This document shows positions 29,879 through 39,216 of a DNA stretch of 64,000 nucleotides, piece after piece. This DNA comes from an uncultured Pelagibacteraceae bacterium (GTDB taxonomy: Bacteria; Pseudomonadota; Alphaproteobacteria; Pelagibacterales; Pelagibacteraceae). Under the pieces are notes generated by a model. That model worked only from the letters and a program-made list of their open reading frames with translations. It did not search any database and was not told where the DNA came from. Positions within the stretch are counted from its first letter, which is position 1. Each line of letters opens with the position of its first letter. The DNA lies in contig CACPID010000004.1 in the NCBI GenBank assembly GCA_902633965.1, positions 1 to 64,000 of the forward strand. Reading direction: 5' to 3'. The translations under genes and the position numbers were made by a program.

Positions 29879-31251
29879 TGGAATATATTAGCACACGAAA
29901 TAATCAAAAAATTTTTACTTTTAAGGACATTTTTTTAAAAGGTTTGGCAGATGATGGAGGTCTATTTATTCCAAAATCAGTAAAACCATTTAGCAAAGAG
30001 GAAATAAACAACTTTAAAAATCTTAGCTACAATGATTTGGCTGCAGAAATAATTAATCCATTTATTGGAGATTTTATGTCTAAAGATGATTTAATTTCTC
30101 TAATATCGAAATCATACTCAAATTTCAGAACTAAAAATGTTGTTAATATAAATAAATTAGGAAATTTAAAAGTTTTAGAACTTTTCCACGGTCCAACACT
30201 TGCTTTCAAAGATATTGCAATGCAACTGATAGGTAATTTTTATGAATATTATTTAAAATTTGAGAAAAAAAAAATTAATATTGTTGTGGCAACTTCAGGT
30301 GATACCGGTGCAGCTGCAATAGACGCCTTAAAAGGAAAAAAAAATTTGAATGTTTTTGTATTACATCCAAATAATAGAATTTCCCCTGTTCAGAGAAAAT
30401 TAATGACAACTTGCGAAGCGAGTAATGTATTTAATATTGCAATACAGGGAAACTTTGATGATTGTCAAAATTTAGTGAAAGCAATGTTTAATGACGAAAA
30501 GTTTTCTAAATCAATTAACATGTCAGGTGTAAACTCAATCAATTGGGCAAGAATTATTGCTCAAGCTGTCTATTATTTTTATGCTTACTTTAAGGTTGGA
30601 AATGGTCAGCCTTTATCTTTTTCTGTTCCAACTGGAAATTTTGGAGATATCTATGCCGGTTACTTAGCAAAAAAACTTGGTCTTCCAATTGACAAACTAG
30701 TTGTTGCTACAAATAAAAATGACATACTACATAGAGCAATATCTGGAGGTGATTATTCTCAAAAGAAAGTTATGGAAACAAATACACCAAGCATGGATAT
30801 TCAGATAGCGAGTAATTTTGAGAGGCTCTTATATGATGTAAAAGATTGTAACTCAGAAGTTACAAAAGATTTAATGAGTAAAATTAAAAACAATACTTAT
30901 AAAATTGATACCGAGGATTTAGGCAAAATACAAAAGAATTTTATATCTGAAATGCTTGATGAAAATGAAACTATTGAAATGATAAAAAAAATTAATGATG
31001 AGCATCAAACGGTCGTTGATCCACATACTGCAGTGGGGATAGGTGCCGTAAAAAAATTAGGAATAGAAAAAAATTGTGTTGTATTATCAACTGCTCACCC
31101 ATGTAAATTTCCAAAAGCAATAGAGGATGCAATTTCTAAGACTGAAAATTTACCAAATAGTCTTAAATACGTTAATGAGAGAAAAGAAAAATTTGAACTT
31201 CTTTCAAATGATATTCAAAAAGTTAAAAAATATGTAATGAATTCGATATGA
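29878..31251 (+). CDS. thrC: Threonine synthase
   Basis: MEYISTRN, LFHGPTLAFKDIAMQ, VATSGDTGAAAI. Confidence 0.96.
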   Translation: MEYISTRNNQKIFTFKDIFLKGLADDGGLFIPKSVKPFSKEEINNFKNLSYNDLAAEIINPFIGDFMSKDDLISLISKSYSNFRTKNVVNINKLGNLKVLELFHGPTLAFKDIAMQLIGNFYEYYLKFEKKKINIVVATSGDTGAAAIDALKGKKNLNVFVLHPNNRISPVQRKLMTTCEASNVFNIAIQGNFDDCQNLVKAMFNDEKFSKSINMSGVNSINWARIIAQAVYYFYAYFKVGNGQPLSFSVPTGNFGDIYAGYLAKKLGLPIDKLVVATNKNDILHRAISGGDYSQKKVMETNTPSMDIQIASNFERLLYDVKDCNSEVTKDLMSKIKNNTYKIDTEDLGKIQKNFISEMLDENETIEMIKKINDEHQTVVDPHTAVGIGAVKKLGIEKNCVVLSTAHPCKFPKAIEDAISKTENLPNSLKYVNERKEKFELLSNDIQKVKKYVMNSI

Positions 31252-31736
31252 AACTGAAAATAAAAGATCAAATACCAAATACGGAGATTTTTCAACTCAT
31301 TGGTGGAGAGCCAAAAAAAAGTAAAATAAGGGAAATTATAGGTAATGAAAAAATTGTTTTATTTGGTTTACCTGGCGCATTCACATCAACTTGCTCCAAA
31401 CTTCATCTTCCAGGTTTTGTAGCTAATGCAGATAAAATCAAAGCACAAGGAATAGAAAATATATTTTGTTTGTCAGTAAATGATCCTTATGTAATGAGTG
31501 GCTGGGGAGAAATTAATAATACTGGAGATAAAATAAAAATGTTATCAGATCCATATTTATTATTCACAAAAGCGATTGGTGCAGAAGTTGATAGAAATTC
31601 AAAAGGAATGGGTATCAGATCAAATCGTTATTTAATGGTTATAGAGAATTTCACAGTAATTAATATTCATGTTGAAAAAGAGACTAAAGAATGTGGATTA
31701 ACTTCAGCAGAGAACTTATTAAATAATCTAATCTAG
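31248..31736 (+). CDS. Peroxiredoxin (Prx5/AhpC-TSA, redoxin)
   Basis: LFGLPGAFTSTCSKLHLPGF, SVNDPYVMSGW. Confidence 0.92.
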   Translation: MKLKIKDQIPNTEIFQLIGGEPKKSKIREIIGNEKIVLFGLPGAFTSTCSKLHLPGFVANADKIKAQGIENIFCLSVNDPYVMSGWGEINNTGDKIKMLSDPYLLFTKAIGAEVDRNSKGMGIRSNRYLMVIENFTVINIHVEKETKECGLTSAENLLNNLI

Positions 31737-31744
31737 TTAGGGCA

Positions 31745-31764
31745 GTTCTGTTGCCAGGTGCCCC
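31745..31764 (+). repeat. Left copy of 20-bp direct repeat GTTCTGTTGCCAGGTGCCCC
   Basis: Identical 20-mer at 32594..32613; local GC content far above surroundings; within GGGCA...TGCCC hairpin. Confidence 0.9.
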
Positions 31765-31795
31765 GAACTTTGTTTGATTATACACACTTAATTTT

Positions 31796-31874
31796 CCAAA
31801 ATCATATATATTTTACGTGTCTGGTCGTCCATATGACGTCTAAAAATCGAGTCGTCAGGGGTTATATGATTTGG
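31796..31874 (+). other. Potential structured RNA or cruciform (about 79 nt) at left end of the islet
   Basis: CCAAA(A)TCATATA pairs with TATATGATTTGG (12 bp, one bulged A); inner hairpin CGTC-CATAT-GACG. Confidence 0.4.
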
Positions 31875-31886
31875 TAACCTTGGATC

Positions 31887-32525
31887 ATGACAGTTATGCT
31901 TAAAGATATAAGAGGGTCTAATTTAGGGTTTATAAATAAACACATTGTTGATCTCAAATCCTTGAACGAAAAAATTTATAACTCAAAAAAAAGCGACAAT
32001 AGAGTGACTCTTAATAGTGAACCTGATGAGTCAAAAAAAAAAGAAATATATAAACTTTATGAATATATTTTTAAAAGTTCATTTGATGCAAAAAAAAAAG
32101 AGGTTTTGCTTACAATTGCATTTGGAAATGAAAAATGGAGCTGGAGAGTAGTGGGAATTTCATATCAGGCTTTATCTGAATTTCAACAAAATGGTTTTAA
32201 ATATAAAACAAGAACTTTCAATCGTGATCATTTTTATCAGCCGAGAATAGTTACTTTTAGAAAAATGTTAAAGGAATTCATGCCATATGAAAAGTGGTGG
32301 AAATGGTTTTGGAAAAATGATGAAACAATTATTGTAACTATTAAACAACATAACAACAACAAGAACTTGTTGGTTGAAAACTTAGACATAATACCAATAG
32401 ATTGGAGATTAGGTTATTTTACTTGCAATCCGGTGGTAGGGTTTAGTTATACTAAAATTAGAGAAGGTGAATATCTACGTAATCTTACACAGATAATTCT
32501 TAACAACGTAGATTCCGACTCATAG
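31887..32525 (+). CDS. Orphan hypothetical protein, 212 aa, no recognised domain
   Basis: Clean ORF between two housekeeping genes, flanked by direct repeats; aromatic-rich C-terminal half (YEKWWKWFWKND). Confidence 0.65.
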   Translation: MTVMLKDIRGSNLGFINKHIVDLKSLNEKIYNSKKSDNRVTLNSEPDESKKKEIYKLYEYIFKSSFDAKKKEVLLTIAFGNEKWSWRVVGISYQALSEFQQNGFKYKTRTFNRDHFYQPRIVTFRKMLKEFMPYEKWWKWFWKNDETIIVTIKQHNNNKNLLVENLDIIPIDWRLGYFTCNPVVGFSYTKIREGEYLRNLTQIILNNVDSDS

Positions 32526-32550
32526 TCGTCCAATCAGGTTGTAATTTTAA
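32504..32550 (+). other. Inverted repeat at right end of islet
   Basis: CAACGTA (32504-32510) and TACGTTG (32544-32550) perfect 7-bp inverted repeat enclosing GACT-CAT-AGTC and GTCGTCCA. Confidence 0.4.
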
Positions 32551-32588
32551 ATTTACGTTGATAATTAAAACTTATTTATTAATAAGAA

Positions 32589-32613
32589 GGGGCGTTCTGT
32601 TGCCAGGTGCCCC
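32589..32613 (-). terminator. GGGGC...GCCCC hairpin downstream of rnhA; contains right direct-repeat copy
   Basis: Minus strand GGGGCACCTGGCAACAGAACGCCCC followed by TTCTTATT, directly after the rnhA stop; contains GTTCTGTTGCCAGGTGCCCC at 32594..32613. Confidence 0.5.
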
Positions 32614-32615
32614 AA

Positions 32616-33038
32616 CTATAAGTTGGCAGCATCTTTAGCAAGTAAATCTACTTCATTATTCAATTCATCAGTTGAATGTGCTTTTACCCAGTTCCAACTT
32701 ATTTCAAACTCATTATTTAGTAGATCTAATTCTGTCCAAAGTGCTTTATTGCTTACTTCTTTTTTGTTTGCAGTTTTCCATCCATTTTTTTTCCAATTAT
32801 GTATCCATTCTGTTATTCCAGACTTTACGTATTTAGAGTCTGTAAAAATTTGAACATTACTACCCTTTGGAATTTTTTTTAAAGCTTCAATTGGAGCAAG
32901 TAGCTCCATTTGATTATTTGTAGTATTTTTTTTACTTCCTTTTATGAAAGTTTTTTTTCCATCAACAATAATTATTGCTGCCCATCCACCATTTCCCGGA
33001 TTAATTAAACATGAACCGTCTGTATATATTTTAATCAT
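32616..33038 (-). CDS. rnhA: Ribonuclease HI
   Basis: IYTDGSCLINPGNGGWAAI, NNQMELLAPIEAL, WVKAHSTDELNNEVDLLA. Confidence 0.96.
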   Translation of the reverse strand: MIKIYTDGSCLINPGNGGWAAIIIVDGKKTFIKGSKKNTTNNQMELLAPIEALKKIPKGSNVQIFTDSKYVKSGITEWIHNWKKNGWKTANKKEVSNKALWTELDLLNNEFEISWNWVKAHSTDELNNEVDLLAKDAANL

Positions 33039-34005: not shown

Positions 34006-34958
34006 TAGTTTAATCTTCCGGGAATTTTAAAAGTTATATCTTCTTTTATAATCTCAACTTCTTCGATATTGACACTAAATTGTTCTTTTAATTTTTTAAT
34101 AAAATTTTCAACTAAAATTTCAGGGGCAGATGCACCCGATGAAATTCCTATTGTTTTGCATTTTGTTATTTTTTCTAAAGGTATGCTACTTTCAGAGTGA
34201 ATTAAAACTGCCTCAGAACACCCAGAATTATTTGCAACCTCAACTAATCTTAATGAATTAGATGAGTTTCTACTACCAATTACAAAAAACATATCACAGA
34301 GTTTTGCAATTTTTTTTACTGCAGCTTGTCTATTAGTTGTTGCGTAACAAATATCCTCTTTTTTTGGTTCTTTAATGTTTGAAAATTTTTCTTTAAGAGC
34401 ATTAATTATATCTTTTGTATCATCTACTGACAAAGTAGTTTGTGTAACATAAGCTAACTTTCCATTTCCTTTGATTTCAAATTTATTAACATCTTCAATA
34501 TTTTCTATTAAATCTATTGATCCATTTGGAATTTGACCCATTGTACCAATCACTTCTGGATGATTTTTATGACCAATTAACAAAACATGAAATCCACTTT
34601 TATTTAAATTTTCAGCCTCTCTGTGAACCTTAGAAACTAATGGACATGTTGCATCAATATAATCCATTTTTAATTCTTTTGCCTCCGCAGGAACAACTTT
34701 TGGAACTCCGTGTGCTGAAAAAATGACTGGTCTAGTTTTATCCTTTATTTCGTTTAATTCCTCTACGAAAACTGCACCAATCTTTTTTAAACTTTCAACG
34801 ACATGTTTATTATGAACTATTTCATGTCTTACGTAAACTGGAGATCCATATTTTTCTATACTTTTTTTTACTATCTCAATCGCACGATCTACTCCTGCGC
34901 AAAAACCTCTTGGAGCTGCTAATAAAACTTTTATTTCTTTATTTTTCATTTTTTTCAA
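34005..34958 (-). CDS. ispH: 4-hydroxy-3-methylbut-2-enyl diphosphate reductase
   Basis: LLAAPRGFCAGVDRAI, DATCPLVSKVH, YATTNRQAAV. Confidence 0.97.
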   Translation of the reverse strand: MKKMKNKEIKVLLAAPRGFCAGVDRAIEIVKKSIEKYGSPVYVRHEIVHNKHVVESLKKIGAVFVEELNEIKDKTRPVIFSAHGVPKVVPAEAKELKMDYIDATCPLVSKVHREAENLNKSGFHVLLIGHKNHPEVIGTMGQIPNGSIDLIENIEDVNKFEIKGNGKLAYVTQTTLSVDDTKDIINALKEKFSNIKEPKKEDICYATTNRQAAVKKIAKLCDMFFVIGSRNSSNSLRLVEVANNSGCSEAVLIHSESSIPLEKITKCKTIGISSGASAPEILVENFIKKLKEQFSVNIEEVEIIKEDITFKIPGRLN

Positions 34959-35853
34959 TTAAATATTCGAGTAATATATGCGGAAAGGTCAAGGACGCCA
35001 AACCAATAAATATTACTTTTAGTATTGCTTCGTCTAAAACATAATAATTAGTTAAAAAATAAATAGCGATAATAAATAATATTGCAGTAATAACAGTTAG
35101 GGGCACTGCTTTTTTTATAAATTTCACAACTCCACTTTTAAAGTTTTTTTTATCAATTTCATAAATTAATGAAAAAGAGTGCCTTACTGAGTGCAAGAAA
35201 CAAAAGTATAAAGTAAAAGCAACTAGTGGAGATAAAAATATATTAAGTAATAAAATAGTTAACCAATCTGCTAATAAAAAACCATTATAGTTTAATTGGC
35301 TCATTAAAATTATATTTGCAGAGAAACTAATTATAAGAAAGAAAATTACTAAATTTTCATTTGCAGTTATAATATCCACATCAAGAGATTGAAAAATCTT
35401 TAGAGTCTCTTCTTGGTGAAAAAATAAAGGAGCAAATACTATTAAAGATCCTTTAAATAAATATAAAATATTCTTAAATCCTCCGTTATTAACAAGTCCG
35501 ACTGAACTATCTTCTTTACCAAAATGGTATGATGCAACCAATAAAAATATAATCAAAGTGAATAAAGGTAGTATTGTCCAACAAAGAATAATTAACAGAG
35601 AAAAAAAAATATATACTGAATAAAAATAAAAATTATTTTTTACTTTATAAATTTTCATTAGCTGGGAGCCTTTGACATGGTCTAGGGCACCATGACAAAC
35701 TCCAATAATAGATATTAAAAAAAAACAAATAACAGTTTGATAAGGTATTGTAATATTTTTTATTTCTAAAAACTTTGAAACTGAGAATATGACTAATATG
35801 TTGAAGAAAAAAATAATGATAGAATATTGTCTATTAAGTTTTAATAAATTCAT
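34939..35853 (-). CDS. blh: Beta-carotene 15,15'-dioxygenase (Brp/Blh family)
   Basis: GVCHGALDHVKG, ASYHFGKEDS, LHSVRHS, FPHILLEYLIE; adjacent to crtY. Confidence 0.88.
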   Translation of the reverse strand: MNLLKLNRQYSIIIFFFNILVIFSVSKFLEIKNITIPYQTVICFFLISIIGVCHGALDHVKGSQLMKIYKVKNNFYFYSVYIFFSLLIILCWTILPLFTLIIFLLVASYHFGKEDSSVGLVNNGGFKNILYLFKGSLIVFAPLFFHQEETLKIFQSLDVDIITANENLVIFFLIISFSANIILMSQLNYNGFLLADWLTILLLNIFLSPLVAFTLYFCFLHSVRHSFSLIYEIDKKNFKSGVVKFIKKAVPLTVITAILFIIAIYFLTNYYVLDEAILKVIFIGLASLTFPHILLEYLIEKNEK

Positions 35854-36921
35854 TTAGTAGAATAACGCTTTTATAAAAGTTAATTTTGGCATTTTTAAAA
35901 TAATAGATATGTCCTCAATAAAATTACTTTTATTGGATAAAAATTTTATCACAGTATTAGCTTTAACTTTAAACATATCACAAAATATCTTTGGCATTAT
36001 TTTAGGATTTCTCTCTAAAACTTTTAAAAAAACCTGATCTAAAAATTTGTATTTACTTTGAATTTCAAAACTTTTAAGTTTTTTTAAATTATCAAAGTTC
36101 TCTCTTATATACTTACTATGCTCTTGTATATTAAGGAATGTATAGCCAGTGCTTAATCGTGTCATACCACCAGCAGTACCGATATTAATTTTATTTTTTT
36201 CATTTATATTTTTTGGTGTAAATAATGGAATTGCACCTTGTTCTTTAAAAATAATATCATAATTTTTTATTTTTAAATTTTGCTCTATATATTCTTTAAT
36301 TTGTTCGTCATAATCCATGATTGAGTCGTCAGTCATATTTGATAACCAAGTGGTCTCTATAAGTGCTTTATTTTTTTCAAATGGAAGTGTATAGAAGAAA
36401 TGTACACTATTTCTTTGATCGCAGTTAAAATCCATCAAATTAATAATCTTATTATCAAAAATATTATTTTTTGTTTGTATCTCTACACCACAAAAATGTT
36501 GCCAAAGATTTTCTATATTTTTATTAATTGTTGGAACACTATTAAAAATAAAAGAGTTGTTTATATTTATTTCCTTAATATCTTTAAAAAAACTTATATT
36601 TTTATTTTTTTTTAATTCATTAATGATTTTAGAGTAAAATAAACCACTATCTATACTTTGATAGGGAAAATCATTACATTGCAAATGTTGTGTTTCGTAT
36701 TTGGAATTTATGGTAAAATTGTTCCAACTCTTTTTAACACAATCGTCAAAATTATGATCTATAACTTTCCAAAAAGACCAAGTTTTATCCCTCTTATATT
36801 CCTCTCTTGGTTCAATAATTGCCAATGTCCTATTTTCAAATTTTTTATATAAATTGAGCTCATGGGCTAACGATAAACCGGCACAACCTCCACCAATTAT
36901 TATGTAATCAAAATCTTTCAT
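35854..36921 (-). CDS. crtY: Lycopene beta-cyclase
   Basis: FDYIIIGGGCAGLSLA, YKRDKTWSFWK, LIETTWLS, GGMTRLSTGYTFLNIQ. Confidence 0.92.
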   Translation of the reverse strand: MKDFDYIIIGGGCAGLSLAHELNLYKKFENRTLAIIEPREEYKRDKTWSFWKVIDHNFDDCVKKSWNNFTINSKYETQHLQCNDFPYQSIDSGLFYSKIINELKKNKNISFFKDIKEININNSFIFNSVPTINKNIENLWQHFCGVEIQTKNNIFDNKIINLMDFNCDQRNSVHFFYTLPFEKNKALIETTWLSNMTDDSIMDYDEQIKEYIEQNLKIKNYDIIFKEQGAIPLFTPKNINEKNKINIGTAGGMTRLSTGYTFLNIQEHSKYIRENFDNLKKLKSFEIQSKYKFLDQVFLKVLERNPKIMPKIFCDMFKVKANTVIKFLSNKSNFIEDISIILKMPKLTFIKALFY

Positions 36922-37756
36922 CTAAATTTATTTTATCATTAATTATATTATGTTCATTTTTTCGTAAATGCTCGTCTGATTTAATAAATAGTAGTCTAAT
37001 AAAGTCTAAAATACTCAAAATAGTTTGATTTAATTTACTTAAATTAGATACATAAATTTTTCCTGAATTTTTATAATTTTCTATATTTTTCCTTTTAAGA
37101 ATTTCATTTCCTATCTGCCTATATACTCTTCTTGCAACAATAATTGCAAATCTACAATTCAATGGAATTTTATTTATAGATTTAAATGAACTTTCATAAA
37201 AAATATCAGCGAGTTTTAATGTTTCCCTTATAGTATCAAAATCGAGGTTTATATACTTTCTGTTTCGATTGCTATCTTCAATTACATCTCGTGCAATATT
37301 TGTTAGCTGCATCGCAATACCTAGATCTATTGCTGACCTAAGTGAATCCTTTGATTTAACGTTTAGTATTTTAGCCATCATCAGACCTACAGTGCCCGCA
37401 ACTCGATATGAATATATAATTAATTCATTATTTGTTTTTAATTTTACACTATCTTTTAAATCTGACTCAACTCCATCAAATAAATCTAATATTATTTTAC
37501 TGGAAATATTAAAATTATTACTCAGTTCATAAATTTTATTAATATTTTTGTTGTTTAAATTTTTATTAATAAAATCTTGTTTAAAATCATTGAATAATTT
37601 TCTTTTTATTTGTAAATCTTGGTTTTTGTCAGCTATATCGTCTAAGGTTCTACAAAAATCATATAAATCAGAGCATTGTCGATAAGTTTTTTTAGGTAAA
37701 AAAAAACCAGCCCAATTAAACGATTTTGCATAAATTGATAATAGATTTTGGGACAT
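36908..37756 (-). CDS. crtB: Phytoene synthase
   Basis: DLYDFCRTLDDIADK, GIAMQLTNIARDVIEDSNRNRKYI. Confidence 0.94.
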   Translation of the reverse strand: MSQNLLSIYAKSFNWAGFFLPKKTYRQCSDLYDFCRTLDDIADKNQDLQIKRKLFNDFKQDFINKNLNNKNINKIYELSNNFNISSKIILDLFDGVESDLKDSVKLKTNNELIIYSYRVAGTVGLMMAKILNVKSKDSLRSAIDLGIAMQLTNIARDVIEDSNRNRKYINLDFDTIRETLKLADIFYESSFKSINKIPLNCRFAIIVARRVYRQIGNEILKRKNIENYKNSGKIYVSNLSKLNQTILSILDFIRLLFIKSDEHLRKNEHNIINDKINLDERF

Positions 37757-39216
37757 CAGAGAATTTTGTCTAAAACTTTAGCCGAAGATAGAACTCCTGG
37801 CACACCAGCTCCTGGATGAGTTCCCGCTCCAACAAAATAAAGCCCATCATATATCTCAGATTTATTATGAAATCTAAAATAAGCTGATTGCGAAAATTTT
37901 GGCTGAATTGAAAAACCTGAGCCATATTTAGTATTAAGGTCATTCTCAAAGTAATCAGGTGTCAAATAAAAATCTTCAACAATGTTCTCCTTTAAGTTTG
38001 GCATTAAATCTTTTTCCATTTTATTAATTACTAAATTTTTCATTTTCTCACCCTCTGTAGACCAATTAATTTTTGACTGGTTATTAGGCACGGGGACTAA
38101 GACGTAAAAACAATCTTTTCCATTAGGGGCCATAGATTTATCAGTCGCAGACGGTCTATGAAGATAATAACTAATATCATCATTCAATTTTTTATTTTCA
38201 AATATATCATCAAGATGCTCTTTATATTTATTACCGAATTTTATTGTATGATGTTCTATGTTTTCATATTTTATTTTTGTTCCAAAATAGTAAACAAAGA
38301 GACCCATTGAATATTCCATTCGTCTTTTTTTCCATTGAAATAAAATAGACTTATTGGCATTTCCATTTAACATTTTTTCATAAACTGCTGGCGGGTCAGC
38401 ATTGCATATAACATTATCTGCTTTGATATTAGTTTTATCATCTAACTCTATACCGGTTATTTTATTACCGGTTGAGATAATTTTTTTAACTTCGTGACCT
38501 TTAATTATTTGGATACCTACCTCAGTCATTAACTTTTCCAAACCCCTTATGATATTTCCAGTGCCACCCATAGAGTAATGTATTCCCCATTTTTTTTCTA
38601 AATATAAAATTAATCCATAAATAGATGTTGTCGTGAAAGGATTTCCTCCAACTAAAAGAGGATGCATACTTAGCATTCTCCTCAATTTTTCATTTTTAAT
38701 ATACGAGGAGACTAGAGAATAAACTGATTTATAACTTTTAAGTTTTAGTAGAGCAGGTAGTTGCTTCATCATAACAAAAGGTTTATCAAAAGGTACATCA
38801 GCAAGTTCTGTAAATCCTTTATCAAAAATCTTTTTTGTAAAACTAACCAAGTTTTCGTATCCCTTAACATCCTCTTTACTAATTTTCTCAATTTGGCTCT
38901 TCATTTCAGCTTCATTACCAGAGTAATTAAACTTTGAATTGTCTTCAAAAACAAATTGATACCAAGTATTGAGAGGAGATAATTCAATATAATTTTTTGG
39001 GTCTTTTTTGAATAATTCAAATAATTCATTAATTAAATATGGAGCAGTAATTACAGTAGGGCCGCCATCGTAAGTAAATCCATTTCTTTTGAAAACCCTT
39101 GCTCTTCCTCCAAGATCTTGGTGTTTTTCAACTAAAGTTACTTTATGGCCTTTAGCTTTAAGGCGGAGAGCAGCAGCTAAACCACCAAAACCAGAACCAA
39201 TTACAATTGAATTCAT
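37756..39216 (-). CDS. crtI: Phytoene desaturase
   Basis: IGSGFGGLAAALRLKAKGHKVTLVEKHQDLGGRA, C-terminal GLYFVGAGTHPGAGVPGVLSSAKV. Confidence 0.96.
   Translation of the reverse strand: MNSIVIGSGFGGLAAALRLKAKGHKVTLVEKHQDLGGRARVFKRNGFTYDGGPTVITAPYLINELFELFKKDPKNYIELSPLNTWYQFVFEDNSKFNYSGNEAEMKSQIEKISKEDVKGYENLVSFTKKIFDKGFTELADVPFDKPFVMMKQLPALLKLKSYKSVYSLVSSYIKNEKLRRMLSMHPLLVGGNPFTTTSIYGLILYLEKKWGIHYSMGGTGNIIRGLEKLMTEVGIQIIKGHEVKKIISTGNKITGIELDDKTNIKADNVICNADPPAVYEKMLNGNANKSILFQWKKRRMEYSMGLFVYYFGTKIKYENIEHHTIKFGNKYKEHLDDIFENKKLNDDISYYLHRPSATDKSMAPNGKDCFYVLVPVPNNQSKINWSTEGEKMKNLVINKMEKDLMPNLKENIVEDFYLTPDYFENDLNTKYGSGFSIQPKFSQSAYFRFHNKSEIYDGLYFVGAGTHPGAGVPGVLSSAKVLDKIL

Follow-up and report, generated by a model that had tools for sequence, protein, structure and literature searches.

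The question raised by this locus is why a 20-bp sequence, GTTCTGTTGCCAGGTGCCCC, stands twice in the same orientation between two convergent genes, with a single reading frame between the copies. The window (the whole 64,000-nt stretch of Pelagibacteraceae DNA that was analysed) was searched by pattern, and exact copies were located at 31745-31764 and 32594-32613, both on the plus strand and 849 bp apart from copy to copy; the extended form of the repeat comprises 26 nt with 92% identity between the copies. No further match with up to three mismatches was obtained elsewhere in the window, and 100 shuffles gave none. The flanking genes are a peroxiredoxin gene (prx, 31248-31736, plus strand; Pfam Redoxin, E=1.7e-24), which adjoins rnhA in many relatives, and rnhA itself (32616-33038, minus strand; Pfam RNase_H, E=1.1e-45), so that their ends at 31736 and 32616 face each other. 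Upon folding, the prx-side copy (hairpin at 31740-31764, minus strand) forms a GGGCA/TGCCC stem and the rnhA-side copy (32589-32613, minus strand) a GGGGC/GCCCC stem, each capped by CUG-GCAA-CAG, i.e., by a GCAA tetraloop. The original prediction had described perfect same-orientation 20-bp repeats, their distances from the ends of the two convergent genes, a hairpin in each copy, the lack of any other copy in the window, and one unrecognised ORF in between; pattern search, gene coordinates and folding agree with it on all of these points, the ORF (212 aa) having neither a Pfam nor an NCBIfam match and no convincing PHROG match.

The reverse complement of both copies was mapped by a permissive Rfam scan to the 3' end of the alphaproteobacterial tmRNA model (alpha_tmRNA; E=1.9e-4 for the prx-side copy, E=7.3e-4 for the rnhA-side copy). 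These weak matches lie below the family cut-off, as is expected because the fragment is only 25 nt long. A third exact copy was found in the same genome at the 3' end of the true ssrA gene (G000:C21:1749-1768), and the attachment repeat thus equals the ssrA 3' end on the strength of weak model scores plus this exact match. Judged by its sequence, the repeat is the hairpin found at the 3' end of ssrA, the SAR11 gene for two-piece tmRNA, a gene located elsewhere in the genome. The islet of the window stands not at ssrA but at the prx-rnhA junction; sister islets stand at ssrA.

Relatives were located with a pattern for the prx-side form of the hairpin. Ten genomes were found, nine of which carry this form at the prx-rnhA junction. 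A single hairpin without an islet is present there in five genomes of the same genus (G088, G081, G055, G256, and G018, in which the copy is degenerate). Two copies surround different ORFs in the window, in G120 (islet of 670 bp, 149-aa ORF) and in G299 (609 bp, 123-aa ORF); in G230 a small gene is present and the prx-side copy alone is recognisable. In the three occupied sites that are clean, the flanks were rejoined at the core and aligned with the nearest empty sites, giving identities of 94.8% (window against G088), 96.7%, and 91.1%, with no gaps for window/G088 and G299/G055 and two for G120/G081. In all three occupied sites the arms are swapped across the 15-bp segment ACCTGGCAACAGAAC (31745-31759 on the prx side and, from the junction comparison with empty sites, 32594-32608 on the rnhA side, both minus strand), on either side of which host and element arms diverge: the rnhA-side copy consists of a host-left and an element-right half (CGCCCCTTC), the prx-side copy of an element-left (GTTCGGGGCACC) and a host-right half (CTGCCCTA). 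The swapped halves identify the repeats as hybrids, attL on the rnhA side and attR on the prx side, with the crossover inside ACCTGGCAACAGAAC.

Direct repeats of host/element hybrid nature together with a matching empty site, as expected of an att-bounded integrative element, were therefore both found, the islet proper (31765-32588) being missing from the five empty sites. The original prediction had allowed for either a duplicated target or an attachment site. The attachment site stands; a transposon target-site duplication is ruled out, the repeats being hybrids that derive from an attB already in place, itself a mimic of the tmRNA 3' hairpin. The search for empty sites that had been proposed as a check thus yielded five single-hairpin sites in the same genus, and two further sites with different islets; the notion of a minimal inserted element without integrase is supported by the empty sites and by the single ORF without a recombinase match. 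The relative with the closest rnhA among those searched (G003) has neither islet nor hairpin at the site, and attB is hence not universal. Other small inserts without a recognisable hairpin, possibly older insertions, follow rnhA in G008, G005, and G013 (L086, L087, L089).

It is highly probable that the 849-bp unit is a minimal, non-autonomous site-specific integrative cassette, a judgement that does not extend to the identity of the enzyme. A circular form with an ssrA-type hairpin core and arms of its own would recombine at the 15-bp core with the matching hairpin (attB) between the convergent prx and rnhA. The ends of the product, attL and attR, would each regain a whole hairpin, so that no gene would be broken. 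Most cassettes of the same class are docked, alone or in tandem, at the hairpin with which ssrA ends on its 3' side, and a site-specific tyrosine recombinase would act in trans. The arms of the window's element are a distal one (TGATTTTGGAAAATTAAGTGTGTATAATCAAACAAAGTTC, 31765-31810, minus strand), common to islets with different cargo, and a proximal one (TTCTTATTAATAAATAAGTTTTAATTATCAACGTAAATTTAAAATTACAACCT, 32536-32588, minus strand), similar to an arm in G120 and in ssrA islets; both are of type A.

The core was found with up to one mismatch in 249 of 300 genomes of the genus, and the reversed-pattern control gave 0 in every genome (at most 1 in a looser survey of the family). All 28 pairs of adjacent cores less than 20 kb apart lie on one strand (150 listed places in 89 genomes). 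Many of the series examined start at ssrA, where the adjoining gene reads as thyX, and contain between one and a few small ORFs; ssrA-anchored islets without an integrase occur across the Pelagibacteraceae, measure 0.2-6 kb and stand singly or in tandem arrays, that of G347 comprising seven or more hairpins in one run. No tblastn match to either of two recombinase queries was obtained in the fetched islet loci and arrays. Arm families A, B, and C, with six or seven near-exact members each, vary independently of cargo, and a fourth family (D) was seen by eye only. Apart from the window's islet, the near-exact type A members are mostly found in ssrA-anchored islets or arrays, and a distal arm like that of the window also occurs in G120 at the same site and in the ssrA-anchored G110, G309, G108, G207, and G311. 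Of 76 intervals with an ORF of at least 60 aa, 59 have their longest ORF oriented opposite to the hairpin and 17 parallel to it; the intervals stem from relaxed matching, and a few may be spurious. The genome comparison shows empty and occupied sites, hybrid junctions, arms shared between islets of different cargo and, among the islets examined, no integrase; with high probability, the islet of the window is a mobile cassette that lacks an integrase, occupies a secondary attachment site of the tmRNA type and belongs to a family-wide system.

The cargo of the family includes type I restriction genes, GIY-YIG proteins, and trypsin-like proteases. Related genes for secreted-protein-like products of 68-80 aa adjoin a hairpin at ssrA in G014 and at other loci in G019, G008, and G230, from which it follows that one kind of cassette occupies different sites. 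A conserved 110-aa ORF (MQQ.ELFDFRRD...) with a weak DruD match lies near an ssrA-type hairpin in several islets (L062, L076, L200). A further recurrent site (G015, L067; G114, L200) is situated downstream of a homocysteine-methyltransferase-like gene, where about 50 bp, more than the hairpin alone, resemble the ssrA 3' end. The only ORF of the window's islet (31887-32525, plus strand; 212 aa) yielded an AlphaFold model with a mean pLDDT of 39, and its assignment as Cmr1 (PADLOC, 17.8 bits, E=8.7e-4) was judged spurious. Its sole relative among 101 genomes, in G114, is 49% identical in the alignment; this gene (L200, 6449-8304) adjoins DarT-like and macrodomain-like proteins, as named by eye, and is about 3.3 kb away from ssrA-type hairpins.

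Among known systems, CIMEs possess attL/attR ends without recombination genes. The window's islet shares both properties; CIMEs are known to be left over from conjugative or mobilizable elements, whereas a non-exhaustive search found no parent ICE or IME of the islets. Integron cassettes are likewise minimal units of one ORF with a hairpin site, and their sites are arranged in tandem in the same direction. In contrast to integrons, no IntI was found, most ORFs are oriented opposite to the site (59 to 17), and the integron core GTTRRRY/RYYYAAC is absent from the 25-bp hairpin on direct reading; the resident recombinase of a g1 relative scored 31 bits against integrase_gron (cut-off 265 bits). 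A study of SAR11 hypervariable regions from 2007 reported no integron-type attC sites and noted an integrase gene in HVR2 (PMC2217521). Closer in kind are additive flexible genomic islands, in which cassettes are inserted next to an RNA gene, part of which recurs as their boundary: fGI-2 of Ca. Methylopumilus uses the last 20 bp of tRNA-Lys (PMC10872708), and fGI1 of Ca. Actinomarinales has cassettes at tRNAs (PMC7771536). The SAR11 islets differ from these tRNA islands in the two-piece tmRNA, the possibility of cassettes with one small ORF, the secondary sites away from ssrA, and the families of terminal arms. Dehalococcoides islands also lie in tandem downstream of ssrA with a 20-bp ssrA repeat, and 16 of 31 contain a serine-recombinase module (PMC3146451), whereas the SAR11 islets are small and no such recombinase was found in 13 g1 genomes. 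Tycheposons, too, integrate at RNA genes in streamlined marine bacteria; they are described as spanning 4-200 kb, those of Methylophilaceae with a tyrosine recombinase (PMC10872708), as compared with 0.85 kb and one ORF without recombinase match for the window's islet.

The logic of integration is thus known in kind. What appears to be new is the combination of minimal cassettes, a tmRNA hairpin core, secondary sites and, as a hypothesis, a recombinase acting in trans, which would set the islets apart as additive genomic islands of a novel sort, attached at the tmRNA hairpin. No earlier description was found in the literature searched, most subscription journals being outside its scope. SAR11, with its streamlined genomes, ranks among the ocean's most abundant bacterial clades. 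Relatives without the insert, together with dozens of similar SAR11 inserts, point to tiny genes being gained and lost in SAR11 at an ssrA-derived docking sequence, as far as can be read from genomes. A small, precise core with many types of cargo would provide a concrete route of gene turnover, its 20-bp signature makes SAR11 mobile genes findable, and the single unexplained tyrosine recombinase of the family gains a testable job.

With regard to this enzyme, each g1 genome searched has at most one tyrosine recombinase gene, that of G010 encoding a different, phage-type integrase; serine recombinases (PF00239) were absent from the 13 g1 genomes, the window's included. The usual recombinase (306-325 aa) is XerA/XerD-like and scores below every NCBIfam cut-off; its R-K-HxxR-H-Y residues are invariant in 21 homologues, and it was matched in 39 of 45 near-complete genomes of the family. 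The window's own assembly (73.6% complete) gave no match to PF00589. The neighbours of the gene read in some genomes as glycosyltransferases and other surface-polymer genes, a setting that fits, by context only, the HVR2 integrase noted in 2007 (PMC2217521). P. ubique has been reported to be without dif/Xer (PMC2731167). The presence of the recombinase is not significantly associated with core copy number (39 vs 6 near-complete genomes, p=0.14), and G395 (93% complete) has six core copies and no recombinase match. In another family of the same order (f2), the genomes searched carry XerC/XerD-like genes, and an f2 genome, G038 (L043), shows what looks like an ssrA islet, roughly 1.06 kb long and bearing a repeat of its own, GGCAACAGAAGTCTCCCAC. 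This resident XerA/XerD-like enzyme is the most likely catalyst, a plausible candidate that falls somewhat short of probable; in view of the missing copy-number association and the f2 islet, the assignment is put forward as a hypothesis. An integron-like system of the Pelagibacteraceae, anchored on the tmRNA 3' hairpin, with cassettes down to a single gene that bring matching hairpins and with one chromosomal XerA-like recombinase shuffling them in trans at ssrA and secondary hairpin sites, in a lineage reported to be without Xer/dif, is proposed tentatively and is, as a whole, rather unlikely.

The main alternative to the resident recombinase contests the catalyst only, not the site-specific reading: a helper, either a temperate pelagiphage or an integrative element, may supply the integrase in trans, the islets being satellites or CIME-like remnants. 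This is possible but less than probable. The two terminal arms look like those of phage attP, e.g., in direct repeats such as TTTACATTGAAGTTTACATTGAAGTTA (next to ssrA in G022 and G023, also in a G110 islet), tmRNA genes are frequent integration sites (PMC11915505), and G010 has its phage-type integrase; against it, no fetched core-bounded islet or array matched either recombinase query, and the attP-arm pattern found none in IMG/VR, where every core-bearing contig belongs to a T4-like phage with a tmRNA 3' end. The contigs L116-L123, T4-like of the pelagimyovirus type, have one exact core each, probably the 3' end of phage tmRNA, and two-piece tmRNA of phages has been described before (PMC9004378). 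A phage origin of the islet itself was rejected, there being neither an attP-arm pattern in IMG/VR nor a phage relative of the ORF.

Placement of the islet by homologous recombination of imported DNA, with the hairpin pair as short homology, is highly improbable: recombination is frequent in SAR11, which also possesses genes for DNA uptake (PMC7542561), but the homology with the empty site amounts to only about 15-25 bp, and at three occupied sites the crossover falls within this stretch. Homing, by which GIY-YIG or HNH endonucleases of the islets would cut the empty site and gene conversion would copy the islet in, is very improbable; GIY-YIG domains occur in four of ten cargo proteins tested (one with NUMOD1), but most islets tested, the window's included, have no nuclease match, and homing alone would not account for hybrid arms or for direct repeats where a site is newly occupied. 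That the hairpin is a mere recurrent terminator or regulatory motif beside ordinary strain-specific genes is scarcely credible, for all that it folds stably, lies between convergent genes and is single at many sites, since precise single-copy empty sites, swapped arms and 28 same-strand pairs out of 28 would be unexpected, the empty/occupied comparison contradicts it, and a scan of 31700-32660 gave no terminator-like site. The original prediction had named such a motif, single and paired without linked ORFs, as its refutation; the resemblance is superficial, because the single copies include ssrA itself and the empty sites, and among the pairs examined almost all have ORFs between them.

The promoter/terminator scan gave nothing above shuffles. 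The hairpin was also considered as the chromosomal dif site and rejected, ssrA of the complete genome G012 lying inside one GC-skew arm and not at the switch. A minus-strand run of genes at 34939-39216 of the window reads by eye as carotenoid/retinal biosynthesis (phytoene synthase, desaturase, cyclase-like).
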